Below, piece after piece: positions 6,372 to 20,424 of a stretch of DNA of 23,700 bases (its first letter is position 1; the number at the start of each line of letters is the position of its first letter). This DNA is from a virus, in IMG/VR virus record IMGVR_UViG_3300027816_000409, positions 1-23,700 of that record, one strand, 5' to 3'. Made by a program: the position numbers and the translations under genes. Below the pieces are notes generated by a model, which was given only the letters and a program-made list of their open reading frames with translations, was not told the origin of the DNA and ran no database searches.

Positions 6372-7508
6372 ATGCGATTACATCTACTAGGTATTCCGCA
6401 TACTCAAACTACTTACGAGTTCAGCCATTGTGCGTTTACTGGTAAGGTAAAACGGTTTGCCCCAATGATGCAATCGGTAGGATATGACGTTATTCATTAC
6501 GGGGTAGAGGGAGCACATAGTGGGGCAACCTATGATGTGAATCTAATGTCGTTTGATGAATGGGCGGGAATTAGAACAAAATTATTTAATGAAATATACG
6601 GTAATCGTGATGCCATGCCATCCGACTTTATCGGTGATTTAGCGAATACTGGTAATGAATTGTATCAAACGTTCAATGCACGCTTAAAGATACAATTAGG
6701 AAGAAATCTTGACACACACGATATTATTTGTTTACCCTTCGGATTTGCCCACGATACGGCTATTAAAGATTTTCCAAATCCAAAAGTAGAAACTGGTATC
6801 GGTTACCCAAACTCATACCAAGACTTCAGAATATTTGAAAGTAATGCGTGGTATCATTACGAGATAGGTCGTGAAGGTAGAAGTGGTCACGATTATCATT
6901 GGGTCATTCCAAACTACTTTAAGGTTGACGATTGGGACTTCAATCCAAACCCAGAAGGATATGTCGCATACTTTGGTAGATTATCAAATATTAAGGGAGT
7001 GCATTTTATATCAGAAATAGCCAAAGTTCGTCCTGATTTAAAGTTTAAAATTTGTGGACAAGGTGACCCAACTCCATATTTAACTTCACCAAATATTGAG
7101 TATGTTCCACCTATTCACGGACGAGAGCGTTCAAAGTTTTTGGGTAACGCAATGGCAGTTATAATGCCAACACGTTATGTAGAACCATTTGGTGGAGTTA
7201 CCGTAGAAGCAGAACTCTGCGGAACACCAGTATTGGGTTCTTCATACGGAAGTTTTACAGAAACGGTTGAACACGGAAAAACTGGATATCAATGTAGAAC
7301 ACTTGGTGATTTCTTAGCAGGATTAGAGCAAATTGAAAATGGTGCAATCGACAGAGCATATGTCCGTAATTTTGCAGTAGAACATTTTGATATGTACAAG
7401 TTGGCTCACAAATATGATGGTGCATTTAGACAAATTAATGATATATCAACTGATAAGGGATGGTATAGTAGACGTTCAATGATTGGACCAATCACGAGGG
7501 TCGTATGA
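6372..7508 (+). CDS. GT-B glycosyltransferase (GT4/Glycos_transf_1 type)
   Basis: A 378-residue retaining-type glycosyltransferase. The C-terminal Rossmann half begins at about residue 197 (GYVAYFGRLSNIKGVH). It carries the EX7E motif at Glu271-Glu279 (EPFGGVTVE) and the GTPVLGSSYGSFTETVEHGKTGY segment that binds the nucleotide-sugar diphosphate. The N-terminal acceptor half is less conserved. It would move a sugar from a nucleotide-sugar donor to a phage or host acceptor such as modified DNA, a virion protein or a surface glycan. The next gene, a nucleotide-sugar dehydrogenase, overlaps by 4 bases, so the donor may be a uronic acid (inference). Confidence 0.88.
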   Translation: MRLHLLGIPHTQTTYEFSHCAFTGKVKRFAPMMQSVGYDVIHYGVEGAHSGATYDVNLMSFDEWAGIRTKLFNEIYGNRDAMPSDFIGDLANTGNELYQTFNARLKIQLGRNLDTHDIICLPFGFAHDTAIKDFPNPKVETGIGYPNSYQDFRIFESNAWYHYEIGREGRSGHDYHWVIPNYFKVDDWDFNPNPEGYVAYFGRLSNIKGVHFISEIAKVRPDLKFKICGQGDPTPYLTSPNIEYVPPIHGRERSKFLGNAMAVIMPTRYVEPFGGVTVEAELCGTPVLGSSYGSFTETVEHGKTGYQCRTLGDFLAGLEQIENGAIDRAYVRNFAVEHFDMYKLAHKYDGAFRQINDISTDKGWYSRRSMIGPITRVV

Positions 7509-8350
7509 ATAAAATTGGTGTAGTAGGATTGGGTTATGTGGGAACAGCGGTGCAGAAAGGTTTTGAATCTACACACACCGTCCTAACATACGATATCGCA
7601 AAAGAATGCACAGAAGATTCTGTTTCTAGTTTAGCAAACAAAGTTGGTATTATTTTTATATGTGTCCCGACACCAATGAATCTAGATGGAACATGTAATA
7701 CGGATATAGTAGAATCTGTGTTAAAAGAAATATCAACACGTAACGAATCCGAAAGTTCGGCACCAATATGTGTTCTTAAATCTACAGTCACACCAGGAAC
7801 AACAAACAGACTAGCAGAAAAATTTATTAATTTGACTATCTGCTTCAACCCAGAATTCCTAACCGAAAAAAACTATATCAACGATTTTGTATCTCAGGTT
7901 GATATTATTTTAGGATATACTCACAATAGTAGACAAGTAAAAATGGTTGATGATGCATATTGGCAACGGTTCCCAAATTCCAGTATTCGTCACACAACGG
8001 CAAAAGAAGCAGAGATGATTAAGTATGTGGCAAATACTATGCTGTCTGCAAAGGTTGCATATCTCAACGAAATATATCAGATATGTCAAAAGGTTGGTAT
8101 AGAGTATAGTAACATCGCAAAAACTTTAAAGTGTGATACACGACTAGGAACATCACACTGGGAAGTTCCAGGACCAGATGGGCACTTTGGATTCGGTGGA
8201 ACGTGTTTTCCAAAAGATATAAATGCTTTGATTCAATTTGCAAAGGAAAATAGTCAAGACGTTCCTTTACTAGAAGCTGTCTGGAATAAAAATCTTGAAG
8301 TACGACCTGAAAAAGATTGGGAACTTGATAAAGGTAGAGCAGTAGTATAA
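7505..8350 (+). CDS. UDP-glucose/GDP-mannose 6-dehydrogenase-like enzyme, C-terminally short
   Basis: A 281-residue protein of the nucleotide-sugar dehydrogenase family, which oxidises the 6-OH of a UDP- or GDP-sugar to a uronic acid using two NAD+. It has the NAD-binding GLGYVG at residues 8-13, VPTP near 54-57, STVTPGTT, FNPEFLTE (114-121), the catalytic-region Lys173 and Asn177, and the catalytic Cys234 in FGFGGTCFPKD. Family members usually have 390-450 residues. This one stops soon after the central domain and lacks the C-terminal UDP-binding Rossmann domain, which normally completes the sugar-nucleotide site. It may act on another substrate, need a partner, or be a natural minimal form. 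It overlaps the glycosyltransferase gene (ATGA) and ends at a terminator. Confidence 0.87.
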   Translation: MNKIGVVGLGYVGTAVQKGFESTHTVLTYDIAKECTEDSVSSLANKVGIIFICVPTPMNLDGTCNTDIVESVLKEISTRNESESSAPICVLKSTVTPGTTNRLAEKFINLTICFNPEFLTEKNYINDFVSQVDIILGYTHNSRQVKMVDDAYWQRFPNSSIRHTTAKEAEMIKYVANTMLSAKVAYLNEIYQICQKVGIEYSNIAKTLKCDTRLGTSHWEVPGPDGHFGFGGTCFPKDINALIQFAKENSQDVPLLEAVWNKNLEVRPEKDWELDKGRAVV

Positions 8351-8373
8351 AATATTATTGAATACTATATATT

Positions 8374-8405
8374 AAGACCGACTTGACAAATGAGTTCGGT
8401 CTTTT
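8374..8405 (+). terminator. Terminator after the dehydrogenase gene
   Basis: AAGACCGA (8374-8381) pairs with TCGGTCTT (8396-8403), extendable by CT/AG, and is followed by TTTATATTT. Its loop contains the TTGACA of the promoter that follows. Confidence 0.8.
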
Positions 8406-8411
8406 TATATT
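8383..8411 (+). promoter_or_regulatory. Promoter of the tmRNA gene
   Basis: TTGACA (8383-8388), 17 bases, TATATT (8406-8411). The start would be near 8418, about 22 bases before the mature tmRNA 5' end. The -35 box sits in the loop of the upstream terminator and the spacer holds its T-run, so ending one transcript and starting the next use the same 40 bases. Confidence 0.8.
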
Positions 8412-8439
8412 TAAGTGTAGATATTTATAGTAGTTAGAA

Positions 8440-8791
8440 GGGCCTGTCATGGTTTCGACGGGATGTAGATGACTAAGCTTTGTATCCAGTTTGGTAATAC
8501 TGGTGAAACAGACCACAAATTTCAACTGGCAACTCATACAGCCAACCTCTCGCCCTCGCTGCGTAAGCAGTAGAGCCGAAGGACCGATGACCTGACCCAT
8601 ATAAGGGTAATCGGACTTATCATATGGTGTAGTGTTAGTAACGGGTAGTAGCTAACATCAAACACAACTACCCTACGTCCGACTTATGTTTGTTCCTTGT
8701 CAAGAGGCGGATGAAACTAAACAAGGAACTATGTGCATAAACGCTTAGTAGGAAGCAGTCTCGGACGAGGGTTCGACTCCCTCCAGGTCCA
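8440..8791 (+). ncRNA. ssrA: Transfer-messenger RNA (tmRNA)
   Basis: A 352-base tmRNA, which rescues ribosomes stalled on broken mRNA and tags the peptide for degradation. The 5' part begins GGGCCTGTCATGGTTTCGACGGG, of the form shared by bacterial tmRNAs. The 3' part has a T-arm (GAGGGTTCGACTCCCTC) and CAGGTCC plus A, which closes the acceptor stem with GGGCCTG. The third pair is G-U, the alanine identity signal. All seven acceptor pairs are identical to those of this phage's own tRNA-Ala (19768-19840). CCA is not encoded. The middle holds a tag frame at 8528-8566, and the sequence after it is rich in possible pseudoknot stems. Its own promoter lies upstream. Confidence 0.93.
8528..8566 (+). 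other. tmRNA tag-peptide reading frame
   Basis: Inside the tmRNA, the frame GGC-AAC-TCA ... GCT-GCG-TAA encodes GNSYSQPLALAA. The ending ALAA is the classical degradation signal recognised by ClpXP-type proteases. GGC is my best guess for the resume codon (Gly is used in some bacterial groups, Ala in most); the frame is open further upstream, so the first residue is uncertain. Confidence 0.75.
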
Positions 8792-8832
8792 TTAAAATTG
8801 ACGGTTGTGTTAATAATTTGAAGGAGGTAGAG

Positions 8833-9117
8833 ATGTATGTGTTCAAAATTATTCAACGCATCTTCAATCAAATATTTCCTCCTATGTCAGTAGAAACTAC
8901 AACCTTGTTGTTAGAAGAAGCAGACATAATAATGAAGGAAATAAAAGAAGCAAGAAAGTTGGCAGATTTACTAAGAATTAAAGAAATTTTAAGAAAGTTT
9001 CGTGGTGCAGTAGAACTAGCAGGATCACCAAGAGAAGTAAAACAAAAATTGGTTTTTTTAGAAGCACAGTGGAACAGGCAATTTAGACTGTGGAAAGCAA
9101 ATGGTAATCGGTTCTAA
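8833..9117 (+). CDS. Hypothetical helical protein, 94 residues
   Basis: The ATG at 8833 follows a perfect AAGGAGG. The protein is almost entirely helical: a hydrophobic start (MYVFKIIQRIFNQIFPP), then a charged helix rich in Glu and Lys (LLLEEADIIMKEIKEARK) and another amphipathic segment. There are no cysteines and no known motif. Its last 17 bases overlap the start of the sulfotransferase-like gene, which points to coupled translation. It begins just after the tmRNA and may be on the same transcript. Confidence 0.65.
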   Translation: MYVFKIIQRIFNQIFPPMSVETTTLLLEEADIIMKEIKEARKLADLLRIKEILRKFRGAVELAGSPREVKQKLVFLEAQWNRQFRLWKANGNRF

Positions 9118-9736
9118 AGTTTCTAGTAAAAGATATATCTGGTTACGAGTTCCAAGAACGGCAACAGTAGCATACGGAAAGATATTTTTTCCAGACGGAA
9201 ATTACGAACATACTCATAGTAACTACTTTTATGAAAGAGATAGATACGGTGAACTACCAGCGTTTTCTGTTGTAAGAAATCCGTATGATAGGTTTGTATC
9301 CTCAGTAAAGCACATATATAAACAGCAGTTGGTAAATGGTACATCTGGGAAATACAAGTTCACAATACCATTTACCGATACAAAAACACTGTATACCTTT
9401 TTTGAAACTAATTTGAAAGTACTACGAGATATAGACAACAACGTAGAACACAAAAGAATTTTTCAAACAGAGGATTTAAGTTTTGTAAAGATGTTTTTTA
9501 GGTTACAAAAAAATTTTGTAGGGTATTCACAAGTAAAAGTGTTCAAGTACGAAGAGCTAGAGGAATTCAATTACTGGATACAAACTGAGTTGGGATTAGA
9601 CACAGGTAAAGTGAGCATACTTAACAGCTCATCTGAAGAGTTGTCTCATATTAACTTCTCATCGGATGAATTCAAAGAACTTACATATAAGTTATTTGAA
9701 GAAGATTATAAATTTTTTGGTTACGTTCAACATTAA
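9101..9736 (+). CDS. Sulfotransferase-like protein (first of four)
   Basis: A 211-residue protein resembling the P-loop sulfotransferase superfamily (Sulfotransfer_2 type), which moves sulfate from PAPS to a hydroxyl or amine of sugars, proteins or small molecules. The 5'-phosphosulfate loop is VPRTATVAYGKIFF (about residues 17-30) and the 3'-phosphate motif is VVRNPYDRFVSS (57-68). A late 'VKVFKYEELEEF' segment matches the usual C-terminal helix start. There is no signal or membrane segment. It overlaps the previous gene by 17 bases. A similar protein lies at 11605-12300, and two more distant ones at 20805 and 21517. The acceptor is unknown. Confidence 0.72.
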   Translation: MVIGSKVSSKRYIWLRVPRTATVAYGKIFFPDGNYEHTHSNYFYERDRYGELPAFSVVRNPYDRFVSSVKHIYKQQLVNGTSGKYKFTIPFTDTKTLYTFFETNLKVLRDIDNNVEHKRIFQTEDLSFVKMFFRLQKNFVGYSQVKVFKYEELEEFNYWIQTELGLDTGKVSILNSSSEELSHINFSSDEFKELTYKLFEEDYKFFGYVQH

Positions 9737-9748
9737 CTAGGAGGCACT

Positions 9749-9931
9749 ATGGACGAAAATAATATCCCCACGGGTGAGTTCGTCAGTGAAGGCACTCCCG
9801 CAAGACCAGGTGAAGAACACTTACCGGCAGAGTTGAGAACCTATGGTATTATGGACTCTAACGGATATAAGATTCTTACAAATATGGGTATTCACGGCGG
9901 TGGTGGTATCACTTCAGAAGGCTTCGACTGA
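9749..9931 (+). CDS. Small protein, 60 residues, ending at a possibly leaky UGA
   Basis: It begins after a strong AGGAGG. The protein is Gly-, Pro- and Glu-rich with no known motif (ending IHGGGGITSEGFD). Its TGA is followed by C, a context known to be leaky, and the next ORF begins 3 bases later in the same frame with no good ribosome binding site. Readthrough would fuse the two into about 208 residues. It may equally be a simple coupled pair, or one gene split by a mutation. Confidence 0.6.
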   Translation: MDENNIPTGEFVSEGTPARPGEEHLPAELRTYGIMDSNGYKILTNMGIHGGGGITSEGFD

Positions 9932-11604: not shown

Positions 11605-12300
11605 ATGCTGATAACATCTAAAATTGATGATACAAAATGGTTATGGGTCAACGTTCCCAAGACTGCTTCTACGGCAGTAATGAGAACGTTTTTCCCATTA
11701 AAGGAAATAAACGAGCAAGAACATCAAACGTATAATCATTTGATAGACATTCACGGAAGTTTTGATGCTTTCACTACTGTTAGAAATCCCATTACACGCT
11801 TTAAGTCCGCTCTCAATCACACATTGAATGTTTGTGTATGTGGAAAATGTAAAATATCGGACAGACCTGTTGATAAAATAGATATTATACATTTCGTAAG
11901 TGATATGCTAAAACTAAAAAGTCAGAAAACAGATTTTTTTAGAGCCGTTTATATGAACGGAGAAAGTGATTATCAAATGAATGTCGCTAGAAGTATGGAA
12001 AACAGGTTTAGTAAGTATCTTATACCAAGTGGAGTAAATTGTTTACGAATTCCAGCATATGTTTCACAAACATTTATATTGAATGGTCCGCAAAATAAAT
12101 TGCATATATTTAAGTATGAAAACCTACAAGAATTGTCGGAATTCATACAAAATAAATTGGGATATACATTTAATAATATTATTTATCGAAAATACACCGA
12201 TAAATTGGGGGTTGACTTTTTAGACCCTACCCTGTTAGATTTACTCCACGAGCTGTATCGTGAAGATTATGATAACTTTAACTACGGGAAACGGTTATGA
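11605..12300 (+). CDS. Sulfotransferase-like protein (second of four)
   Basis: A 231-residue relative of the protein at 9101. The PAPS loop is VPKTASTAVMRTFF (about 17-30) and the 3'-phosphate motif is TTVRNPITRFKSAL (57-70). The later segment LHIFKYENLQELSEFIQNKLGY aligns with 'VKVFKYEELEEFNYWIQTELGL' of the first copy. A small Cys cluster (CVCGKCK) near residues 76-82 is absent from the first copy and could hold a metal. It has no ribosome binding site of its own and starts 2 bases after the HNH stop, so it is probably coupled. Its end overlaps the HD gene (ATGA). The acceptor is unknown. Confidence 0.72.
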   Translation: MLITSKIDDTKWLWVNVPKTASTAVMRTFFPLKEINEQEHQTYNHLIDIHGSFDAFTTVRNPITRFKSALNHTLNVCVCGKCKISDRPVDKIDIIHFVSDMLKLKSQKTDFFRAVYMNGESDYQMNVARSMENRFSKYLIPSGVNCLRIPAYVSQTFILNGPQNKLHIFKYENLQELSEFIQNKLGYTFNNIIYRKYTDKLGVDFLDPTLLDLLHELYREDYDNFNYGKRL

Positions 12301-12920: not shown

Positions 12921-12928
12921 TAGTTGAT

Positions 12929-13010
12929 GCACTTGTGGCGGAATTGGGAGACGCACCAGCCTTAGGAGCTGGCGCCGTGAGGCGTGTGGGTTCGACCCCC
13001 ACCGAGTGCA
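12929..13010 (+). tRNA. tRNA-Leu (anticodon TAG)
   Basis: Class II tRNA. Acceptor GCACTTG/CGAGTGC, anticodon loop CTTAGGA on the stem CCAGC/GCTGG, a variable arm GGCGCCGTGAGGCG, T-loop TTCGACC, discriminator A. It reads CUA. It lies 8 bases after the HD gene and starts the tRNA region. Confidence 0.95.
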
Positions 13011-13015
13011 TTTGT

Positions 13016-13090
13016 GGTGATTGTAGCTCAGCTGGCAGAGCAGCGGATTGTGGTTCCGCGGGTCGCGGGTTCGAGCCCCGTCAGTCACCC
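13016..13090 (+). tRNA. tRNA-His (anticodon GTG)
   Basis: Acceptor GGTGATT/AGTCACC, anticodon loop TTGTGGT on GCGGA/TCCGC, T-loop TTCGAGC, discriminator C as expected for His. The base before the acceptor is T, so the usual G-1 is not encoded. Confidence 0.93.
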
Positions 13091-13110
13091 GTACAAAAAG
13101 GAGAATTGTT

Positions 13111-13296
13111 ATGGCAAAACAAAAAATAAATGAAAATTGGAATGTCCAGTATTATTCACGTGATTCTCAATCAAACGAAGATATTTTAAATTTAAATATG
13201 TCGTGGGAAAATCGTGATATTGATGGAGTGAAGAAAAATTTAAATATCTGGTTGTCTGCAATAGGCATACCACTCCAAGTGACAGATAAAAAGTAA
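13111..13296 (+). CDS. Hypothetical protein, 61 residues
   Basis: A small protein starting MAKQKINENW after AAAGGAGA. It contains Asn- and Trp-rich polar stretches (SWENRDIDGVKKNLNIWLSAIGI) and a helical C-terminal part. It lies between tRNA-His and tRNA-Thr, with 2 bases between its stop and the next tRNA, so it is almost certainly in the same transcript. 'VKKNLNIWLSAIGIPL' may be a protein-contact helix. The function is unknown. Confidence 0.6.
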   Translation: MAKQKINENWNVQYYSRDSQSNEDILNLNMSWENRDIDGVKKNLNIWLSAIGIPLQVTDKK

Positions 13297-13298
13297 TC

Positions 13299-13371
13299 GC
13301 TGACATAGCTCAGTTGGTAGAGCACCACTTTGGTAAAGTGGAGGTCACCAGTTCAATCCTGGTTGTCAGCT
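13299..13371 (+). tRNA. tRNA-Thr (anticodon GGT)
   Basis: Acceptor GCTGACA/TGTCAGC, anticodon loop TTGGTAA on CCACT/AGTGG, T-loop TTCAATC, discriminator T. It reads ACC and ACU. It begins 2 bases after a stop codon. Confidence 0.94.
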
Positions 13372-13373
13372 CT

Positions 13374-13447
13374 GCCTCAATAGCTCAACTGGATAGAGCA
13401 CCTGACTTCGGATCAGGGGGTTGTGGGTTCGAATCCTTCTTGGGGCG
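13374..13447 (+). tRNA. tRNA-Arg (anticodon TCG)
   Basis: Acceptor GCCTCAA/TTGGGGC with one G-U, anticodon loop CTTCGGA on CCTGA/TCAGG, T-loop TTCGAAT, discriminator G. It reads CGA and possibly other CGN codons. Confidence 0.94.
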
Positions 13448-13451
13448 TTAT

Positions 13452-13525
13452 ACCCGCGTAGCTCAGTTGGATAGAGCAACAGCCTTCTAAGCTGTGGGTC
13501 AGAGGTTCGAATCCTCTCGCGGGTG
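13452..13525 (+). tRNA. tRNA-Arg (anticodon TCT)
   Basis: Acceptor ACCCGCG/CGCGGGT, anticodon loop CTTCTAA on ACAGC/GCTGT, T-loop TTCGAAT, discriminator G. It reads AGA and AGG, codons frequent in AT-rich phage genes and usually rare in GC-rich hosts. Confidence 0.95.
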
Positions 13526-13543
13526 CTAATCTATGGAGGTTGT

Positions 13544-14149
13544 ATGTCGTATCCGTTGACAACAAGAGTACATAGTATAAAAAAGGACATGCTTCCTTAC
13601 ACATTTATTGATGATGTATTTACAAACGAAGAATTAAACCAAGTAATAAATTATTGTAATACTTTAAGTTTGGGTGATGCAACGGTAGGTGAAGGACGAA
13701 TTGCACCAAACTATAGAAAGTCTAAAGTAAACCAGTTTAAGGTAAATAATCAAAATAATTGGATATTTGATAGATTACAAACAGCGGCAACTTATGTAAA
13801 TAACGAATTTTTTAGATTTGACTTGATTGGATTTGACAAAATTCAATACACAGAGTACAGAGATCAAAATGATTTATATGATTTTCACGTAGATTGTTGG
13901 ATGGGCGAGAATACACCAGCTGACCATATGTTTCCGAGAAAGTTATCGTGCAGTCTCATACTGTCAGATTCAAACGAATATGAAGGTGGTCAGTTTGAAG
14001 TTATGTACACCAAACAACCAGAAGAAGTAAAACAAATAAAAAATAGACTAATTACATTTCCGTCATACATGCTACATAGAGTAAAACCAGTAGTAAAAGG
14101 AACACGTAAATCATTAGTATTTTGGGTCATTGGCCCTAAATTTAAATAA
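13544..14149 (+). CDS. 2OG-Fe(II) oxygenase (prolyl 4-hydroxylase-like)
   Basis: A 201-residue dioxygenase of the 2-oxoglutarate/Fe(II) superfamily, with the prolyl-hydroxylase arrangement. Iron ligands are His115 and Asp117 (YDFHVDCW) and His178 (YMLHRVKPV). Arg188 (GTRKSLVFWV) is placed to bind 2-oxoglutarate. The core strands (KLSCSLILSD..EGGQFEV) are typical of the PKHD-type group. It would hydroxylate a side chain of a protein, perhaps host or virion. The ATG at 13544 is chosen for GGAGG 5 bases upstream. It ends one base before tRNA-Cys. Such oxygenases are common in large aquatic phages; the substrates are rarely known. Confidence 0.85.
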   Translation: MSYPLTTRVHSIKKDMLPYTFIDDVFTNEELNQVINYCNTLSLGDATVGEGRIAPNYRKSKVNQFKVNNQNNWIFDRLQTAATYVNNEFFRFDLIGFDKIQYTEYRDQNDLYDFHVDCWMGENTPADHMFPRKLSCSLILSDSNEYEGGQFEVMYTKQPEEVKQIKNRLITFPSYMLHRVKPVVKGTRKSLVFWVIGPKFK

Positions 14150-14235
14150 GGTGCGATGGCCGAGAGGCTGAAGGCACGGGTCTGCAAAACCCTTGGACTA
14201 AACATCCCGCGTCAGTTCGAATCTGACTCGCACCT
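14150..14235 (+). tRNA. tRNA-Cys (anticodon GCA), with a long variable arm
   Basis: Acceptor GGTGCGA/TCGCACC, anticodon loop CTGCAAA, T-arm GTCAG-TTCGAAT-CTGAC, discriminator T as expected for Cys. About 17 bases separate the anticodon and T stems, with GGA and TCC able to pair, so this is a class II body carrying a Cys anticodon. The D-arm (GGCCGAGAGGCTGAAGGC) also looks like that of Ser or Leu tRNAs. Confidence 0.88.
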
Positions 14236-14251
14236 CTTTTCAGGAGAAACT

Positions 14252-14416
14252 ATGACAAGACTAACACCAGAAATTGTAAAGAATACAATTGTTACGGTTA
14301 TTTGTGTTCTCACCATAGTTATGTTAGCCACCGCACTGATAGTTGGTGAAGTTAACAAACCAGAAGTGCTACAAGGTGGTGATATTCAACACGCTATGGA
14401 GACAGGACAATTTTAA
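14252..14416 (+). CDS. Small single-pass membrane protein, 54 residues
   Basis: It starts after AGGAGA. One transmembrane helix (TIVTVICVLTIVMLATALIV) follows a short basic N-terminus; a hydrophilic tail of about 20 residues follows. The final A of its TAA is the first base of the next ATG, so translation is coupled to another membrane protein. The function is unknown; both may form one membrane complex. Confidence 0.6.
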   Translation: MTRLTPEIVKNTIVTVICVLTIVMLATALIVGEVNKPEVLQGGDIQHAMETGQF

Positions 14417-14697
14417 TGAAGAAACTTTTATTTACGAAACCGATTACATTGTCGGACACCGCAGAACATAGAATTCATACTCGTAAGTGGTGGGCGATAC
14501 TGATTTTGGTTGTAGGTGGTTTATTGTTAGCAGGACGAGTACCCGTCCCGATGTCGTTAAGTTATACTTTACTGTTCTTCGGTCATGCTGGAATGTTGCA
14601 TAGTTTCTGGGAGAAACGAGATTATCCTATGGTTATCGTCAACCTTGTTTGGCTTGGTGTTGATGCCTTAGGATTCATACGATGGTGGAATATGTAA
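14416..14697 (+). CDS. Small multi-helix membrane protein, 93 residues
   Basis: Three hydrophobic segments are likely: about residues 25-42 (WWAILILVVGGLLLAG), 45-60 (PMSLSYTLLFFGHAGM) and 72-90 (PMVIVNLVWLGVDALGFIRWW), with basic residues between them. The topology probably places the N-terminus in the cytoplasm. It starts in a TAATG overlap with the previous gene. It has no known family. It may alter the host membrane, transport or sense, but nothing is diagnostic. Confidence 0.65.
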   Translation: MKKLLFTKPITLSDTAEHRIHTRKWWAILILVVGGLLLAGRVPVPMSLSYTLLFFGHAGMLHSFWEKRDYPMVIVNLVWLGVDALGFIRWWNM

Positions 14698-14700
14698 CAA

Positions 14701-15126
14701 ATGACAAGACAATGTGGAAGTTGTACCAAATGTTGTGATGGTTGGTTAACCGCCGATGTATACGGACACAAAATGGAACCAGGCAAACCCTGTCCATTTG
14801 TTGGTGACCATAAATGTACAATATACAATAAGCGACCACAATTATGTAGTGATTTTAAGTGTGGGTGGTTAAAAGATGATGGAACCTTGTTTGATGAATG
14901 GCTGCGTCCTAACAATACTAATGTTATATTCGTTCATTTCAAAATTGATGATATCGTGTGGTATCGTTTGGCCGAAGCAGGTGCAAAAGTAAACACAATA
15001 CTGTTAAGTTATATAATTCAAATATTTACAAAAAATAATGTAAATTTAGAATATTGGATAAACGGAGCGCAGTTTCTTATAGGTACGCAAAAGTTCAAAG
15101 ACTTGGTTAAAACACACCACAACTAA
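14701..15126 (+). CDS. YkgJ-type CxxCC cysteine-cluster protein
   Basis: A 141-residue protein with the N-terminal pattern CGSCTKCC (Cys5, Cys8, Cys11, Cys12), then CPFVGDHKCTIYNKRPQLCSDFKCGW. This is the zinc/iron-binding CxxCC family (YkgJ, PF03692), thought to hold a metal or Fe-S cluster. The second half (WYRLAEAGAKVNTILLSYIIQIF) is helical. The biochemical role of the family is poorly known; phage members are seen in large genomes. It starts 3 bases after the previous stop, with no good ribosome binding site, so it is likely coupled. Confidence 0.8.
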   Translation: MTRQCGSCTKCCDGWLTADVYGHKMEPGKPCPFVGDHKCTIYNKRPQLCSDFKCGWLKDDGTLFDEWLRPNNTNVIFVHFKIDDIVWYRLAEAGAKVNTILLSYIIQIFTKNNVNLEYWINGAQFLIGTQKFKDLVKTHHN

Positions 15127-15135
15127 TTTGTAAAC

Positions 15136-15209
15136 GGCAGGGTAGCTCAGTTGGTGAGAGCGCACGACTCATAATCGTGAGGTCGAGGGTTCGAATCCCT
15201 CCCCCGCTA
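15136..15209 (+). tRNA. tRNA-Met (anticodon CAT)
   Basis: Anticodon loop CTCATAA on CACGA/TCGTG, T-arm GAGGG-TTCGAAT-CCCTC, discriminator A. The acceptor GGCAGGG/CCCCGCT has a G-U first pair and an A-C mismatch at pair 4. The anticodon stem lacks the GGG/CCC of initiators, so it is an elongator. An Ile2-type (lysidine) use is possible but less likely because a TAT tRNA-Ile is present. Confidence 0.85.
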
Positions 15210-15224
15210 TAACACGGAGAATGT

Positions 15225-15401
15225 ATGTTTATTATTAAGTTCAACGATATTGAAACACCAACACAGTATGCAACACGTGAAGATGCGGTACGAGAATTAA
15301 TAGGTATGTTTGGTGATATTGAATTGGATGAAATGAATATTGCGTTCTGGCCTAGTGTATCGGCACGAGGATACACAAAGATAGAGATAGTAGAACAATA
15401 A
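15225..15401 (+). CDS. Hypothetical protein, 58 residues
   Basis: It follows CGGAGA and starts at the second ATG of ATGTATG; the first leads to an early stop. The sequence begins MFIIKFNDIETPTQY and ends YTKIEIVEQ. It looks like a small beta-alpha-beta protein with an acidic centre. Another small protein with the same kind of beginning (MIKYLVKIYF) lies at 18954. Its stop abuts tRNA-Tyr directly. Confidence 0.6.
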   Translation: MFIIKFNDIETPTQYATREDAVRELIGMFGDIELDEMNIAFWPSVSARGYTKIEIVEQ

Positions 15402-15485
15402 GGGAGTGCCGCAGAGTTGGAGGACTGCAACAGACTGTAAATCTGTCGCCAATAGGCCTAGTAGGTTCGAATCCTTCCACTCCCA
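15402..15485 (+). tRNA. tRNA-Tyr (anticodon GTA)
   Basis: Class II tRNA. Acceptor GGGAGTG/CACTCCC, anticodon loop CTGTAAA on ACAGA/TCTGT, a long variable arm (CGCCAATAGGCCTAG), T-loop TTCGAAT, discriminator A. It starts at the base after the preceding stop codon. Confidence 0.95.
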
Positions 15486-15488
15486 TAT

Positions 15489-15562
15489 AGGCGCGTAGCT
15501 CAGGTGGTTAGAGCACTGACCTGATAAGTCAGGGGTCGCTGGTTCAACTCCAGCCGTGCCTA
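15489..15562 (+). tRNA. tRNA-Ile (anticodon GAT)
   Basis: Acceptor AGGCGCG/CGTGCCT, anticodon loop CTGATAA on CTGAC/GTCAG, T-arm GCTGG-TTCAACT-CCAGC, discriminator A. It reads AUU and AUC. Confidence 0.94.
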
Positions 15563-15566
15563 CTTT

Positions 15567-15639
15567 GCACCGTTAGCTCAACTGGTAGAGCATTCGCCTC
15601 TTAAGCGACAGGTTGTAGGATCGTCCCCTACACGGTGCA
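15567..15639 (+). tRNA. tRNA-Lys (anticodon CTT), odd T-loop
   Basis: Acceptor GCACCGT/ACGGTGC, anticodon loop CTCTTAA on TTCGC/GCGAC (outer pair mismatched), discriminator A. The T-loop is ATCGTCC on GTAGG/CCTAC, so T54 and A58 of the normal loop are replaced by A and T. It reads AAG. Confidence 0.85.
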
Positions 15640-15642
15640 TAC

Positions 15643-15715
15643 GCCAAGATAGCTCAGTTGGTAGAGCGCCAGCCTGAAGAGCTGGGCGTCGGGGGTTCGA
15701 CTCCCTCTCTTGGCA
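15643..15715 (+). tRNA. tRNA-Phe (anticodon GAA)
   Basis: Acceptor GCCAAGA/TCTTGGC, anticodon loop CTGAAGA on CCAGC/GCTGG, T-loop TTCGACT, discriminator A. It reads UUU and UUC. Confidence 0.95.
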
Positions 15716-15732
15716 TTACATAGGAGAACGTT

Positions 15733-15846
15733 ATGTTTAATGCAGCATTATTATTTTTTATTGTATTCGTCGCATACCGATGGGTAAAAGGTATAGAAAA
15801 TATGAAAAATCTTCACCCAGACTACAAAGGTGAGGACTTCCCGTGA
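15733..15846 (+). CDS. Tiny membrane protein, 37 residues
   Basis: It starts after AGGAGA. A hydrophobic N-terminal helix (FNAALLFFIVFVAYRW) is followed by a polar tail (KNLHPDYKGEDFP). It overlaps the next tiny ORF by GTGA. Size and layout fit small phage membrane peptides. The function is unknown. Confidence 0.5.
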   Translation: MFNAALLFFIVFVAYRWVKGIENMKNLHPDYKGEDFP

Positions 15847-15938
15847 TATACGCTATTATTACATTTTTAATAATAGCTATTACTATAAGCTTGACAACGG
15901 CTTGGATAGCAGTTATATTAGAAAAGGACGAGTTTTAG
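15843..15938 (+). CDS. Possible tiny membrane protein, 31 residues (GTG start)
   Basis: A GTG start in a four-base overlap with the stop of the previous ORF, with GTGAGG upstream. The peptide is nearly all hydrophobic (IYAIITFLIIAITISLTTAWIAVIL) and ends EKDEF. A good promoter lies inside it, and its stop overlaps the first base of tRNA-Trp, so either the region does double duty or the ORF is fortuitous. Confidence 0.4.
   Translation: MIYAIITFLIIAITISLTTAWIAVILEKDEF
15891..15919 (+). promoter_or_regulatory. Promoter for tRNA-Trp and tRNA-Asn
   Basis: TTGACA (15891-15896), 17 bases, TATATT (15914-15919), the same two boxes and spacing as before the tmRNA and tRNA-Lys(TTT). The RNA would start near 15926, about 12 bases before the tRNA. 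Confidence 0.7.
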
Positions 15939-16009
15939 GGTCTATGGTGTAATTGGCAGCACAATGCTCTCCAAAAGCATTAGTCAAGGTTCGAGTCCTT
16001 GTGGGCCTG
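15938..16009 (+). tRNA. tRNA-Trp (anticodon CCA)
   Basis: Acceptor GGGTCTA/TGGGCCT with several G-U pairs, anticodon loop CTCCAAA on ATGCT/AGCAT, T-arm CAAGG-TTCGAGT-CCTTG, discriminator G as expected for Trp. Its first base is the last base of the preceding TAG. Confidence 0.9.
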
Positions 16010-16015
16010 TTTCAT

Positions 16016-16089
16016 TCCCAGTTAGCTCAGTTGGTTAGAGCATCTGACTGTTAATCAGAGGGTCGGGGGTTCAAGTCCCTCACTGGGAG
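16016..16089 (+). tRNA. tRNA-Asn (anticodon GTT)
   Basis: Acceptor TCCCAGT/ACTGGGA, anticodon loop CTGTTAA on TCTGA/TCAGA, T-loop TTCAAGT, discriminator G. It reads AAU and AAC, codons very common in this phage. Confidence 0.95.
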
Positions 16090-16115
16090 CTTTACAAAAC
16101 AACAATGAGGTTATT

Positions 16116-16373
16116 ATGAATTTGACACCGAATGATAAGTTGAAGTTAGAAGCAGCATTAAAAGATATGGCAACGTCTATGACCCGTGTTGCCGCAGAAC
16201 GTGACTTGCAAAAGAATGTGATTGGAGACATCTGTGAAGAACTCCAACTCAACAAGAAGGTATTCCGTAAGTTAGCACGTGTATATTACAAGCAGAACTT
16301 TGATGATGAAGTTGCAACGCACCAAGAGTTTGAAACCCTTTACGAGACGGTAACGCAAACCACTAAGCCCTAA
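16116..16373 (+). CDS. dsbA: DsbA-like double-stranded DNA-binding protein, late transcription
   Basis: An 85-residue protein close in size to T4 DsbA (89 residues), a small dsDNA-binding protein that affects late transcription. The C-terminal half matches well: here LNKKVFRKLARVYYKQNF then DDEVATHQEFETLYETV; T4 has a parallel 'GKMFNRLLALYHKDN ... EEVVELYDAVF'. The N-terminus (LKLEAALKDMATSMTRVAAERD) is helical. This is the best hint that the phage belongs to the T4-like superfamily. ATGAGG serves as the ribosome binding site. It lies between tRNA-Asn and a lipoprotein gene. The assignment rests on remembered T4 sequence. Confidence 0.75.
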   Translation: MNLTPNDKLKLEAALKDMATSMTRVAAERDLQKNVIGDICEELQLNKKVFRKLARVYYKQNFDDEVATHQEFETLYETVTQTTKP

Positions 16374-16383
16374 GAGGTGACGT

Positions 16384-16833
16384 ATGAATCGGTTATGGAT
16401 GTTGTTGTTCGTTCTAGTAGGATGTTCATCACCAACGCAACCGCAAGTTGTACAAAATTATGAACTTAACTTTGTAAAAGATATAGATACTATTTTTGTA
16501 GATGTATCTGGTGGACAAGTAGTTAAACATCTAGGTGCGTTTACCAATGTTCGTAGTCGCAGAATGGTTTTAATCAGTAGTAATATTTTTGTTCAAGCAA
16601 CGGCAGGTTTTGGTCAGATTGATACCGTGTCTACTGTGAATGGTATATCACATACTAACAATGGATATGTTGGAACTGCATTTGGCGCATTTCCAAATAT
16701 GATTGGTATGACCGCAACGATTATAGCTAAAGTAGTTGACGATAGTAAAACACCAGAGGAGTTTAGATATCCACATTTACGAAAAGTTTTAGCAGTGGAT
16801 ACTATGCGAGTATTGATACTTCCTCGAAAATAG
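16384..16833 (+). CDS. Predicted lipoprotein, 149 residues
   Basis: A signal peptide with a lipobox, MNRLWMLLFVLVGC, predicts cleavage before Cys14 and lipid attachment, followed by SSPTQPQ. The mature part is about 135 residues, rich in beta strands (NYELNFVKDIDTIFVDV, MTATIIAKVV), with no known family. It starts after AAGAGG. Phage lipoproteins often block adsorption or DNA entry by a second phage, or act as spanin partners; neither can be decided from sequence. A second phage lipoprotein occurs at 22821. Confidence 0.75.
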   Translation: MNRLWMLLFVLVGCSSPTQPQVVQNYELNFVKDIDTIFVDVSGGQVVKHLGAFTNVRSRRMVLISSNIFVQATAGFGQIDTVSTVNGISHTNNGYVGTAFGAFPNMIGMTATIIAKVVDDSKTPEEFRYPHLRKVLAVDTMRVLILPRK

Positions 16834-16839
16834 TAGGTT

Positions 16840-16913
16840 GGGGTGGTAGCTCAATCGGTTAGAGCACTGCACTGTCACTGCAGAGGTTGCGGGTTCGATT
16901 CCCGTCCATCCCG
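16840..16913 (+). tRNA. tRNA-Asp (anticodon GTC)
   Basis: Acceptor GGGGTGG/CCATCCC, anticodon loop CTGTCAC on CTGCA/TGCAG, T-arm GCGGG-TTCGATT-CCCGT, discriminator G as expected for Asp. It reads GAU and GAC. Confidence 0.95.
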
Positions 16914-16937
16914 TGTCACACCACAAAGGAGTGTATT

Positions 16938-17135
16938 ATGAAACGTATATATTTGAGTAGTAAAGAAAACAAAATCGCTGGAGTCTGTGGTGGGTTTGCG
17001 GAGTCATTAAATATTGACCCAACCCTCATCAGACTTTTGTTTATTGCGGCATTTCTTTCACCACTCCCGGCAGTCATTTTTTATCTTCTATGCTGGATAG
17101 CAATTCCAAAAGACCCAGGATACGAGAAGGAGTAA
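16938..17135 (+). CDS. PspC-domain membrane protein
   Basis: A 65-residue protein that is a single PspC domain (PF04024). The family signature is complete: IYLSSKENKIAGVCGGFAESLNIDPTLIRLLFI, followed by a hydrophobic helix (AAFLSPLPAVIFYLLCWIAIP). In bacteria PspC sits in the inner membrane and signals envelope stress to PspA, the phage-shock system named for its induction by phage secretin. Full PspC is usually longer; this minimal form may mimic or block the host sensor, or steady the membrane during infection (inference). AAAGGAG precedes the ATG at 16938. The glycosyltransferase gene follows 3 bases after the stop. Confidence 0.87.
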   Translation: MKRIYLSSKENKIAGVCGGFAESLNIDPTLIRLLFIAAFLSPLPAVIFYLLCWIAIPKDPGYEKE

Positions 17136-17138
17136 GTT

Positions 17139-18260
17139 GTGAAGCTATTATTTTTATCCGCATGTGGAAAAACAAAAGAAGCAGAAGATAATGGATATAT
17201 CAATTTGTATCTTGCATCACTGAAACAATATATCGTTCCACATTTCGATGTGAAAGTTATTTTGTTTAACAACGCACTTAATCAAAACTCCAGCGAAAGT
17301 CAAACATTTCAACGAGTAAAAGAGTTTGGGTTGGAACATATAGTAGAAGTAAAGAATATGTACGAAATGGGACTACCACAGGAATCTGTAAACTTTCTTG
17401 ATAATTTGCATTGGTTTGGTAAAATTGGTATCAATATGAATATGTTATTCGATTATGCCAAGATGAATAATTTTTTTGATGCGGATTGGGTTTTCCACTT
17501 CGATACAGATTTAGAGTTTTTACCAAACTTTAAAGATGTGTTAATGAGTATTGATGAAGTTAGAAAAGTAAATAATGAAGTTATGATAACAGCTGGTGGT
17601 GACACCTACCCATACAATATACGATACAAGGATACAGAATTTATTTTCGATGAACCATCACGAATAAATATTTATGATGCATCCACTCTTAGCCATCACT
17701 TTAATTTACGCAAGCTGAAGGTTAATAAACGCAATGAGGGATCAGACACATCCGCCTATATGAACAACGAAAGGTTGGTATTCAACCTACAGCAACAAAA
17801 AATACGTAATGATTTTGTTGGGTACTCCAAAGACGCTGCAAGGTCTAATTTATTTAATTGGATTGGTTGTCACTATTCAAGTAACTTTGAGGCTCTCGGA
17901 CATTTGAAAGACGATGAAGAAGCAAAGTATTTACAACAACTGTGGGAAGAAAAGGGAAGTCCAAATCTTCAACTTACAATAAGTCACGATAAGGGTTCGT
18001 TACCACAATTTTTCTTACAAGGATCAAGTCATAACGTAATAAAAATACAAGTTCGTGGATATTCGGATATGGCTAAACATTTTAGTTCCGGGTATTATGA
18101 GGAAACACCATACAGAAAATATTCAGAACAACGATTGAAAGAACATTACACCGACACACAACACATCTGGGAAAAAGATTATTTGACAAAAGAAGAAATA
18201 GAATCTAGAATTTTTAATTTACAAAACGAAATCCAACGATTACAACAAATGTTAAATTAG
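17139..18260 (+). CDS. GT-A-like glycosyltransferase, 373 residues
   Basis: The start is a GTG (AAGGAG upstream). The first 120 residues suggest a nucleotide-sugar fold: MKLLFLSACGKTKE, then YLASLKQYIVPHFDVKVILFNN. The motif WVFHFDTDLEFLPNFKD near residue 125 has the DxD that binds the metal and sugar diphosphate in GT-A enzymes. Later parts (FNWIGCHYSSNFEALG, LTISHDKGSLPQFFLQGSSHN) look like an acceptor domain of the kind seen in phage and LPS glycosyltransferases. The last 30 residues form a coiled coil (SRIFNLQNEIQRLQQML). It follows the PspC gene. The substrate is unknown. Confidence 0.7.
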   Translation: MKLLFLSACGKTKEAEDNGYINLYLASLKQYIVPHFDVKVILFNNALNQNSSESQTFQRVKEFGLEHIVEVKNMYEMGLPQESVNFLDNLHWFGKIGINMNMLFDYAKMNNFFDADWVFHFDTDLEFLPNFKDVLMSIDEVRKVNNEVMITAGGDTYPYNIRYKDTEFIFDEPSRINIYDASTLSHHFNLRKLKVNKRNEGSDTSAYMNNERLVFNLQQQKIRNDFVGYSKDAARSNLFNWIGCHYSSNFEALGHLKDDEEAKYLQQLWEEKGSPNLQLTISHDKGSLPQFFLQGSSHNVIKIQVRGYSDMAKHFSSGYYEETPYRKYSEQRLKEHYTDTQHIWEKDYLTKEEIESRIFNLQNEIQRLQQMLN

Positions 18261-18266
18261 CAGTAG

Positions 18267-18351
18267 GGACAGTTGGCTGAGTGGTCTAAAGCAGGAGATT
18301 ACTAATCTCTCGTACCGAAAGGTACCGTGGGTTCGAATCCTACACTGTCCG
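18267..18351 (+). tRNA. tRNA-Ser (anticodon ACT)
   Basis: Class II tRNA. Acceptor GGACAGT/ACTGTCC, anticodon loop TTACTAA on GGAGA/TCTCT, a variable arm GTACC-GAAA-GGTAC capped by a GNRA loop, T-loop TTCGAAT, discriminator G. The anticodon ACT is very unusual; GCT is normal for AGU and AGC. It is the only Ser tRNA in the window. A possible promoter (TTGACA, 17 bases, TAGAAT, 18183-18211) lies within the gene upstream. Confidence 0.88.
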
Positions 18352-18369
18352 TTTTAAATGGAGTATACA

Positions 18370-18480
18370 ATGGCTACACATAAAAGAAAAGGACATACTA
18401 GAAAACCAAGAAAATCTTGGCAAGCTAGTATAAAAGTAAAATCAACAACTGTTAAAAATCCGCGTAGAAAACGTAAATAA
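18370..18480 (+). CDS. Tiny, very basic protein, 36 residues
   Basis: MATHKRKGHTRKPRKSW at the start and NPRRKRK at the end; about half the residues are Lys or Arg. It follows a GGAG site and lies between tRNA-Ser and tRNA-Lys. Such small basic proteins bind RNA or DNA; the composition resembles ribosomal proteins like L34, but no match is clear. A second of similar style is at 22392. Too short for a family call. Confidence 0.6.
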   Translation: MATHKRKGHTRKPRKSWQASIKVKSTTVKNPRRKRK

Positions 18481-18502
18481 TTAGTATTTATTTAGATGGG
18501 GG

Positions 18503-18531
18503 TTGACAATTAGCAGTCCCCTAGTTATATT
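18503..18531 (+). promoter_or_regulatory. Promoter for tRNA-Lys(TTT) and the RNA region behind it
   Basis: TTGACA (18503-18508), 17 bases, TATATT (18526-18531). TGGGGG at 18497-18502 can pair with CCCCTA at 18518-18523, leaving TTGACA in the hairpin loop, as with the tmRNA promoter. The start would be near 18538, 11 bases before the tRNA. Confidence 0.75.
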
Positions 18532-18548
18532 ACTGGTGTAGGGTAAAC

Positions 18549-18622
18549 GCCTCCATAACTCAATTGGTCAGAGTAGCTGGCTTTTAACCAGTAAGTTCTA
18601 GGTTCGAGTCCTAGTGGGGGCA
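18549..18622 (+). tRNA. tRNA-Lys (anticodon TTT)
   Basis: Acceptor GCCTCCA/TGGGGGC, anticodon loop CTTTTAA on CTGG/CCAG, T-arm CTAGG-TTCGAGT-CCTAG, discriminator A. It reads AAA, the favoured Lys codon of most genes here. Confidence 0.95.
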
Positions 18623-18644
18623 CTGTTGATTAAAAATTGAAAGT

Positions 18645-18850
18645 TAGTTGTAGAGCTTATCCGCGGTAGGAAAACCCCGCGCTACACGATTTAAGCGACC
18701 CTTACGTGAGACACCACTACAACGGTGCAGGGGAAGTTTCCGTAAGTAGTAGTCCTCGTATGTAGACAAACGTTCGGTGAGGATGGCACCAACGATGATA
18801 GATAAGTTCTTCTCTATAAAATGAGAGGATACTATAACAACTCATCCATA
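18645..18850 (+). ncRNA. Candidate structured noncoding RNA
   Basis: About 205 bases without a credible ORF between two tRNAs. TGTAG (18649-18653) pairs with CTACA (18682-18686) around a CGCGG/CCGCG stem (18662-18666 with 18677-18681) and an 8-base bulge. CTTACG (18701-18706) pairs with CGTAAG (18741-18746) around CACC/GGTG (18712-18715 with 18724-18727). TCCTC (18753-18757) pairs with GAGGA (18779-18783), with CGT/ACG inside. GGATG (18781-18785) may pair with CATCC (18843-18847). It is probably transcribed from the promoter at 18503 with the neighbouring tRNAs. No known family is recognised. Confidence 0.55.
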
Positions 18851-18851
18851 C

Positions 18852-18934
18852 GCCCTGGTGGTGGAATGGTATACACAGCAGACTTAAAATCTGCCGGCCT
18901 CACGGTCTTGCGAGTTCGAGTCTCGCCCTGGGCA
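18852..18934 (+). tRNA. tRNA-Leu (anticodon TAA)
   Basis: Class II tRNA. Acceptor GCCCTGG/CCTGGGC with one T-T mismatch, anticodon loop CTTAAAA on GCAGA/TCTGC, variable arm CGGCCTCACGGTCTT, T-arm GCGAG-TTCGAGT-CTCGC, discriminator A. It reads UUA, a codon frequent in the phage. Confidence 0.93.
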
Positions 18935-18953
18935 TTAGTCTGTAGGAGAATGT

Positions 18954-19118
18954 ATGATTAAGTATTTAGTAAAGATATATTTTGAAGGTGGTGTAACATC
19001 CTTCACATATTACGCAGCAGAAGCAACCGAGGCTATTACACAGTTTCGTAATGACCCAGATGCACAAAAGTTGTTAGAAGGAAAAGTATTGACGCATTAT
19101 GAAGTAGGACCTGTTTGA
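18954..19118 (+). CDS. Hypothetical protein, 54 residues
   Basis: It starts after AGGAGA at the ATG of MIKYLVKIYF. A strand-turn-strand start (KIYFEGGVTSFTYYAAEA) leads to a helix (EAITQFRNDPDAQKLLEG) and a last strand, the pattern of a small alpha/beta protein. It is similar in size and start to the protein at 15225 (MFIIKFNDIETPTQYATREDAVREL), and may be a distant paralogue. It lies 19 bases after tRNA-Leu and 5 bases before tRNA-Gly. The function is unknown. Confidence 0.65.
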   Translation: MIKYLVKIYFEGGVTSFTYYAAEATEAITQFRNDPDAQKLLEGKVLTHYEVGPV

Positions 19119-19123
19119 TAGTT

Positions 19124-19195
19124 GCGGGTGTAGCTCAGTGGTAGAGTCCGTGCTTGCCAAGCACGTTGTCGTGGGTTCGAATCCCATCGCCCGCT
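19124..19195 (+). tRNA. tRNA-Gly (anticodon GCC)
   Basis: Acceptor GCGGGTG/CGCCCGC, anticodon loop TTGCCAA on CGTGC/GCACG, T-arm GTGGG-TTCGAAT-CCCAT, discriminator T. It reads GGU and GGC. Confidence 0.95.
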
Positions 19196-19207
19196 CTTGG
19201 AGAATTT

Positions 19208-19777
19208 ATGTTTGATATGTTTAATAGAGTAATCTCACAACGAGGTTACACAAGATACCTAGAAATCGGTGTTAGTAATGGTGGAACATTCTACAACATA
19301 GAATGTCAAGTAAAGCATGGTGTGGATCCTAATAATAAGGATATGCTTTACCCCATTACATCCGATGAGTTTTTTGAAAACTGTAATCAAACATATGATA
19401 TAGTTTTTATTGATGGTGACCACGAGTGTAATCAAGTCTTACGAGACATTGATAATAGTATTAAACACTTGTCACCAAATGGTATTATCTTTATTCACGA
19501 TACAAAGCCGCACACGGAGTTGATGCAACAATCACCGATGCCCAACAATCTTTGTGAAAGAGGATTGTGGACTGGTGATGTGTGGAAAGCTATCGCAAAG
19601 TTTAGAAACACAAGAAAAGATTTTACAGTTAGAACATTTGACATAGAACTTGGATTGACTATATTAGAACGTGGTGAGGGAACGCTGATAGAAATACCAG
19701 ATGAACTCACTTATGATTGGTACTTGACAAATCAAGATTATGTGTTAAATTTAATTCCGTACAATACGGGCCTGTAG
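19208..19777 (+). CDS. Class I SAM-dependent methyltransferase
   Basis: A 189-residue protein of the Methyltransf_24 type. The SAM-binding glycine loop is YLEIGVSNGGTF (about residues 17-28), followed by the acidic loop VDPNN and the DxxFIDGDHE segment around residue 70, then LSPNGIIFIHDTKPH. These enzymes often methylate sugars in phage and bacterial glycan clusters, which would fit the other glycosyltransferases and sulfotransferase-like proteins (inference). The ATG at 19208 follows TTGGAGAA. The last 10 bases, including the stop, are also the first 10 of tRNA-Ala, so the two products overlap. Confidence 0.87.
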   Translation: MFDMFNRVISQRGYTRYLEIGVSNGGTFYNIECQVKHGVDPNNKDMLYPITSDEFFENCNQTYDIVFIDGDHECNQVLRDIDNSIKHLSPNGIIFIHDTKPHTELMQQSPMPNNLCERGLWTGDVWKAIAKFRNTRKDFTVRTFDIELGLTILERGEGTLIEIPDELTYDWYLTNQDYVLNLIPYNTGL

Positions 19778-19840: not shown

Positions 19841-19845
19841 TAGTT

Positions 19846-19919: not shown

Positions 19920-19939
19920 TTTACCATAAGGAGGTTATT

Positions 19940-20164: not shown

Positions 20165-20172
20165 AAGTAGTC

Positions 20173-20244: not shown

Positions 20245-20248
20245 CTTT

Positions 20249-20332: not shown

Positions 20333-20335
20333 TAA

Positions 20336-20408: not shown

Positions 20409-20424
20409 CTAACAAGGAGAATAT

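Follow-up and report, generated by a model that had tools for sequence, protein, structure and literature searches.

A one-piece tmRNA gene with a variable tag in a group of T4-related phages

Introduction

In one survey, tmRNA was found in 402 of 18,146 phage genomes (given as 2.3%), and 53 of the 133 unique molecules were two-piece (PMC9004378), in agreement with the remark in the first-pass annotation of the DNA studied here that few phages carry a tmRNA. Ten phages with a tmRNA have been listed, one of which has an RNA that barely extends beyond the tRNA-like domain (PMC4131195), and in cluster C mycobacteriophages about 30 tRNAs occur together with one tmRNA (PMC4131195 and abstracts). 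Huge phages with a tmRNA and SmpB have been described (PMC7162821), as has a tmRNA together with ClpX in the Sinorhizobium jumbo phage AP-J-162 (PMC11242549).

The tmRNA gene described here lies in a 23,700-nt stretch of DNA, referred to as the window, from a bacterial virus for which environmental DNA is the only source. It belongs to a known kind of phage gene, since phage tmRNAs are already documented (PMC9004378, PMC4131195, PMC7162821, PMC11242549). Its contribution is a natural series of four tags on one-piece tmRNAs within a single T4-related phage group, whose members have up to 29 tRNAs; a ClpP-like peptidase is encoded in two of the records.

As in cluster C mycobacteriophages (Bxz1 type) and Bacillus phage G, the tmRNA is found in a large phage (PMC4131195). 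Those phages belong to another lineage, the head protein and polymerase being T4-related here, and have another tag. The Bxz1 tag is reportedly of another type. Methylophage Melnitz and the pelagimyophage ssrA also represent tmRNAs of aquatic tailed phages (PMC9004378). However, the tmRNA of Melnitz is two-piece and accompanied by a glutamine riboswitch (PMC9004378), whereas the window tmRNA is one-piece; no riboswitch family reached threshold in the window (Rfam cmscan). Huge phages and AP-J-162 carry their tmRNA beside translation or Clp genes, as here (PMC7162821, PMC11242549), but in the records of the present group that we searched we found no SmpB or ClpX zinc finger and, instead, a ClpP-like peptidase. 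The annotated ssrA of Crassvirales phage cr10_1 shares 29 bases of the T-arm and 3' end with the window gene at 96.6% identity; it had no further blastn match to the window and scored 18.7 bits with RF00023, below the cut-off.

Results

Identification of the tmRNA gene

ARAGORN called a one-piece tmRNA on the plus strand of the window (Table 1). Cmscan with RF00023, the search proposed in the first-pass annotation, placed it at 8440-8794 with a score of 122.7 bits (E 7e-48; gathering cut-off 47), the match covering the whole model (1-374 of 374). A two-piece (permuted) gene was rejected because this match was full-length and colinear. The tRNA-like domain comprises a 7-bp acceptor stem, the G3-U70 pair and a T-arm. 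Together with the tag frame, the two programs confirmed that this is a phage-encoded tmRNA, as had been proposed from its ends, T-arm, tag and alanine signal. As judged from the sequences, the gene looks intact, and it is retained in related viruses.

Table 1. Position of the tmRNA gene, its elements and neighboring features in the window
Feature	Position	Strand	Remarks
Sigma-70-like promoter, TTGACA-17-TATATT	8383-8411	+	11/12; overlaps a hairpin followed by a T-run
tmRNA (ssrA), one-piece	8440-8791	+	ARAGORN, RF00023; TTA follows, CCA not encoded
Acceptor 5' arm, GGGCCTG	8440-8446	+	paired with 8784-8790 (CAGGTCC); G3-U70
Pseudoknot 1	8486-8515	+	8486-8490/8499-8503 and 8492-8495/8512-8515; two-sided changes in stem 1, stem 2 invariant
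Tag frame, GNSYSQPLALAA and TAA	8528-8566	+	resume codon GGC; A at -4 is 8524
Hairpin H5	8558-8571	+	from the fold; stop codon in loop; alone not above shuffles in the window
Pseudoknot 2	8584-8627	+	8584-8588/8610-8614 and 8597-8602/8622-8627
Pseudoknot 3	8633-8673	+	8633-8638/8652-8657 and 8643-8649/8667-8673
Pseudoknot 4	8677-8729	+	8677-8681/8708-8712 and 8692-8700/8721-8729
T-arm	8767-8783	+	RF00023 match, named pairs
Acceptor 3' arm, CAGGTCC	8784-8790	+	discriminator A is 8791
94-aa ORF	8833-9117	+	directly 3' of the tmRNA; no PHROG match
tRNA-Ala(UGC)	19768-19840	+	ARAGORN; acceptor stem same as in the tmRNA

The phage and its relatives

Over 23,010 bases, the window was nearly identical to a 148,340-base T4-related phage record (IMG/VR 3300031963_000020, called G002 here): a stretch of 17,973 bases was 99.99% identical and the 5,056 bases after it 98.3%. 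The last 690 bases (23011-23700) had no match in G002 at E 1e-3, and 609 of them matched another record, G007, at 89%. Because this end matches G007 instead, the window and G002 are either near-identical strains diverging at 23,010, through strain exchange, or one of the assemblies is mixed. PHROGs matched on 10 ORFs of G002 included the major head protein, portal, baseplate wedge subunit, DNA polymerase, ribonucleotide reductase and helicase. Flavobacterium phages immuto and Microcystis phage Mel-JY01 have head proteins 51-52% identical to that of G002, and the polymerase is 44% identical to its Mel-JY01 counterpart; the best head-protein matches were Flavobacterium phages, an uncultured phage and the Microcystis phage, Rhodothermus phage RM378 being a weaker one. 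No tmRNA above the cut-off was found in immuto 3-5A or Mel-JY01.

We collected seven IMG/VR records through the tag pattern or a PurA-like protein, and six of them had a tmRNA above the cut-off (all but G006, 19 kb). Another 20 records were searched, one chosen for the ORF found downstream of the tmRNA and the others for a ClpP relative; among these, only G181 (131 kb) had a tmRNA above the cut-off, and the remaining 19 are mostly fragments. Thus, seven other records carry a tmRNA of the window type, in two of them (G001 and G002) with identical sequence, which leaves six distinct tmRNAs (window, G003, G004, G005, G007 and G181) in two gene contexts. Those of G004, G005 and G007 were 78-87% identical to that of the window. 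In record G199, a T-arm-like match (model positions 346-363) lies about 50 bases upstream of its downstream ORF, and this record may be cut within its tmRNA.

The window contains 26 tRNA genes (12928-22781), which cover all 20 amino acids, and G002 contains 29. None of the 26 encodes CCA, nor does the tmRNA. A tRNA-Ile(UAU) and a tRNA-Ser with anticodon ACU were called in the window, and both were also called in G003 and G007.

The tag reading frame

The predicted ALAA-ending tag frame was indeed present: it runs from GGC to GCG TAA and translates as GNSYSQPLALAA, the stop codon being placed in the loop of hairpin H5 in the fold of the window tmRNA. All six distinct tmRNAs have an A at -4 of the resume codon and an open tag frame with a stop. 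In E. coli tmRNA, A86 sets the frame, and every mutation of it cuts activity dramatically or destroys it (PMC2481249). The A at -4 occupies the equivalent position, which supports a functional ssrA.

Four distinct tags were read, those of G005 and G181 by eye: GNSYSQPLALAA (window and G004), GNYNSPALALAA (G003 and G007), GNQLALAA (G005) and GTQEFALAA (G181). The first G and the final ALAA are constant in all four, and the body varies among relatives. The set is thus a natural experiment that separates the part kept by the phages (ALAA) from the parts free to vary. The tag reported by ARAGORN itself for the window tmRNA is another one, a frame of 29 aa that lies farther downstream. This is most likely a mis-call, because the tag that ARAGORN gave for G003, GNYNSPALALAA, starts at gene nucleotide 89, the same place as the window frame; tag lists relying on the program's window tag would carry over the error.

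The fold is under constraint

We defined 71 pairs, which cover the acceptor, a single long-range helix, H5, the T-arm and the two stems of each of the four pseudoknots, and counted them in a MAFFT alignment of the six distinct tmRNAs, with 500 shuffles as a control that ignores relatedness. By this kinship-blind comparison, pairing was observed in 92.3% of 415 cells (85.0 in shuffles), two-sided changes in 20 of the 71 pairs (9.7 in shuffles) and a covariation of 0.282 (0.138 in shuffles), each value being reached in none of the 500 shuffles. The number of further pair types in the same alignment was not above shuffles (32 compared with 31.2; 216 of 500). When partners were shifted by 1-3 columns, pairing dropped to 33-46%. 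The pseudoknot fold around the tag frame that had been anticipated is therefore present: both stems of the four pseudoknots can be drawn in the window, and across the six tmRNAs two-sided changes occur in one or both stems of every pseudoknot.

Not all pairs behaved equally well. In the long-range helix the terminal pair failed in four of the six rows, and in pseudoknot 1 stem 1 the last pair failed in three. The counts are lowered by the alignment, which shifts the G003 acceptor by one column and misaligns H5 in G005 and G181. When each sequence was searched separately, the acceptor, pseudoknot 1 stem 1, pseudoknot 2 stem 2 and pseudoknot 3 stem 1 were recovered in all six, and no more than about 7% of the shuffles did as well. 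By the same search, pseudoknot 1 stem 2 and pseudoknot 4 stem 1 were above shuffles in none of the six and H5 was unclear; pseudoknot 3 stem 2 in G003 and pseudoknot 4 stem 2 in G181 did not exceed shuffles, and pseudoknot 4 stem 2 in G003 was weak.

The acceptor stem and tRNA-Ala

The first-pass annotation had stated that all seven acceptor pairs, including the G-U alanine signal, match those of the phage tRNA-Ala. This was correct, the arms GGGCCTG and CAGGTCC, with G3-U70, being found in both window RNAs. The further suggestion that the acceptor is a copy of the tRNA-Ala in some special sense found no support and was rejected. The 73-nt tRNA-Ala is identical in the window, G002, G003, G007 and G181, and the G003 tmRNA (arms GGGCCCG and CGGGTCC) is one pair off its tRNA-Ala through a compensated change. 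Furthermore, a script found the first seven bases of the tmRNA to equal those of a tRNA-Ala of the same genome in 4 of the 12 bacterial genomes compared, or in 5 of 12 if we count by hand one genome (G015) in which ARAGORN starts the tRNA-Ala one base early; by eye, the 3' arms agree as well.

These 12 genomes come from 26 that were hand-picked, and thus not random, from the tag scan described below. A strict tRNA-Ala pattern matched in 2 of the 26 and a looser one in 19, some of these matches being other tRNAs; 30 matches were retained as loci, and in those of 12 genomes a tRNA-Ala was called by ARAGORN, whereas the 14 genomes without a called tRNA-Ala were dropped. Each genome's tRNA-Ala set was only partly seen. 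Since both tmRNA and tRNA-Ala must be substrates of AlaRS, we regard identity of their acceptors as frequent and not as an indication of copying.

Search for SmpB, ClpX and ClpP

The first-pass annotation had also proposed to look for a phage SmpB or ClpX elsewhere. No SmpB (PF01668) was found in seven records, the window being represented by G002, nor in a second search of three (G002 and G003 repeated, G181 new), any of these records possibly being incomplete; the control for this search was positive in 10 of 14 genomes. The function of the tmRNA would therefore depend on a host protein. A ClpX zinc finger was found in none of four records searched.

What we found instead was a ClpP-like peptidase, in one of the four tmRNA-bearing records searched (G002, 145481-146047; PF00574, 94.4 bits, at 145,529-146,038); it was not found in G003, G004 and G007, which are fragments. 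The G002 protein matched solved ClpP chains (best E 4e-15) and has, by eye, S, H and D at the places aligned with the catalytic triad. Relatives 57% and 48% identical occur in Sinorhizobium phage Phosso and in Synechococcus phage BUCT-ZZ01 (annotated as hypothetical), respectively, and G181, which carries a tmRNA, also has a ClpP-like peptidase. The best PHROG of the G002 protein was a head maturation protease family. Its gene neighbors are presumably, from their translations, the clamp-loader and sliding-clamp genes, and the head gene is about 67 kb away in the linear record; this location makes a role as head protease less likely.

IMG/VR contains many relatives of ClpP: 103 of the 105 candidate stretches proved to be such, and 80 were kept. 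Besides G002, only G181 had a tmRNA above the cut-off among 19 ClpP-bearing records, mostly fragments, which indicates that the ClpP and tmRNA genes are not tightly linked. The case for ClpP as a specific partner of the tmRNA is weak on this count, and we did not retain it.

The host

We scanned bacterial genomes for GN...[LFY]ALAA tags and obtained at least 118 stretches. Among the matches listed, 10 of 118 tags ended in LALAA, 8 being Chloroflexi, Dehalococcoidia or Ca. Aquidulcis by title, one Acidobacteria and one an unnamed bacterium. In a sample of the class to which the Aquidulcis genome belongs, 121 of 151 genomes had a tmRNA match above the cut-off. We read 70 loci of this class (the 30 best-scoring and 40 picked by hand, small genomes first), which yielded 61 tags, 11 of them GNRQPALALAA; in six rows the tag appears as TNSYALAA, where reading probably began a codon too late and the tag is GTNSYALAA. 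No exact copy of a phage tag occurred among these bacterial tags, which come from the scan and the class loci, two non-exhaustive sets. By their endings, the phage tags point to Chloroflexi as the putative host.

Other features point, weakly, rather to a Bacteroidota host, namely the missing CCA, the tmRNA tree and the kinship of the head protein. None of the six distinct phage tmRNAs encodes CCA. Among the scan matches listed, and with groups made from titles after 10 of the 118 loci without an ARAGORN tmRNA had been dropped, CCA was encoded by all 6 Deinococcota, by 8 of the 10 Chloroflexi and by 4 of the 87 Bacteroidota; among the other taxa the count was 3 of 5. The tree comprised 164 rows (6 phage, 108 scan and 50 class tmRNAs, 22 of 72 class candidates having been left out for unclean ends) and was midpoint-rooted. 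In it, the phage clade (support 1.0) sat on a very long branch inside a 93-leaf clade with a support of 0.755, of which the 25 names listed were Bacteroidota by title. Rows of Planctomycetota and Thermaceae were also among the nearest to the phage clade by branch length, and the best pairwise identity between phage and bacterial tmRNAs in the tree was 49%.

Flanking sequence

The sigma-70-like site upstream of the tmRNA (Table 1) is only a lead, because 10 promoter-like sites were counted in 7400-9800 for 8.5 expected. Identical hexamers with the same spacing precede the tmRNA in G003 and, by eye, in G181; the site is missing upstream of the tmRNA in G004, G005 and G007, where other sequence is found. 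No terminator was detected in 7400-9800 by the rule of the tool used. An ORF similar to that downstream of the window tmRNA (91-97 aa) occupies the same place in G003, G004, G005 and G007, in both gene contexts.

Discussion

We consider it very probable that the window contains a functional phage ssrA gene, whose RNA rescues stalled ribosomes and tags the stubs for ClpXP-type proteolysis via the AlaRS and SmpB of the host. The data bear directly on the integrity of the gene, its frame, a fold under constraint and conservation; expression, maturation, charging, use of host SmpB and a benefit to the phage are what we infer. The tmRNA would be transcribed during infection, its 5' end would be made by RNase P, and a host enzyme would add CCA. 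Host AlaRS would then charge it with alanine via G3-U70, and host SmpB would bind it. After entry into ribosomes stalled on broken or cleaved messages, translation would resume at GGC (8528) and (A)GNSYSQPLALAA would be appended, whereby the ribosome would be freed and the stub delivered to ClpXP-type proteolysis through its ALAA end. The likely gain for the phage would be that ribosomes are kept free during message degradation, and the large tRNA set (26 in the window, 29 in G002) points in the same direction.

The RNA could alternatively be a decoy or regulator that, instead of tagging, would bind SmpB or the ribosome in competition with the host tmRNA. The RNA of phage DS6A barely extends beyond the tRNA-like domain, and a similar molecule strongly inhibits tmRNA (PMC4131195). 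In the present group, however, the whole molecule is kept, with an open tag and stop in all six tmRNAs and two-sided changes in the pseudoknot stems; as an intact tag is unnecessary for a decoy, we regard this as quite unlikely. Hardly credible is the passive carriage of a functionless or decaying host ssrA: phages can acquire this gene, which is a known integration site (PMC9004378), but the helices show two-sided changes between tmRNAs 78-87% identical to that of the window, and no integrase was found among 20 ORFs scanned (10 of the window and 10 of G002).

The proposal in the first-pass annotation that the tag may steer tagged peptides elsewhere concerns the fate of the tagged protein and is compatible with our preferred reading as far as rescue is concerned. 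On this view, tagged proteins would escape host proteolysis or be handed to a protease under phage control, formed by phage ClpP and host ClpX, as could be suggested by the ClpP-like peptidase of G002, which is near-identical to the window, and of tmRNA-bearing G181, and by the differing tag bodies. Steering elsewhere nevertheless found no support, as all four tags retain the ALAA end, which is an ordinary degron end. Moreover, ClpP was missing from three of four tmRNA-bearing records (the fragments G003, G004 and G007), the ClpX zinc finger from all four, and a tmRNA from all but G181 of the 19 other ClpP-bearing records, mostly fragments. Redirection thus seems unlikely to us. We are very doubtful of a phage tag-and-destroy line, in which the tmRNA would tag the products of cut messages and phage ClpP, acting on host ClpX, would degrade them and feed phage synthesis; if it existed, the changing tag body could be an escape from, or a choice among, host adaptors.

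Other genes of the window

The segment 1651-2664 encodes a short (337 aa) adenylosuccinate-synthetase-like protein with GDTGKG where the aligned PurA has GDEGKG. We rejected its assignment to PurZ (Z-DNA): it scored 273 bits with the PurA model versus 121 with PurZ, below all their cut-offs, and solved PurA chains outranked PurZ chains. Glycosyltransferase and UDP-glucose dehydrogenase genes are present at 6372-8350, and two sulfotransferase-like genes (PF03567; PHROG galactose-3-O-sulfotransferase) at 9101-9736 and 11605-12300.
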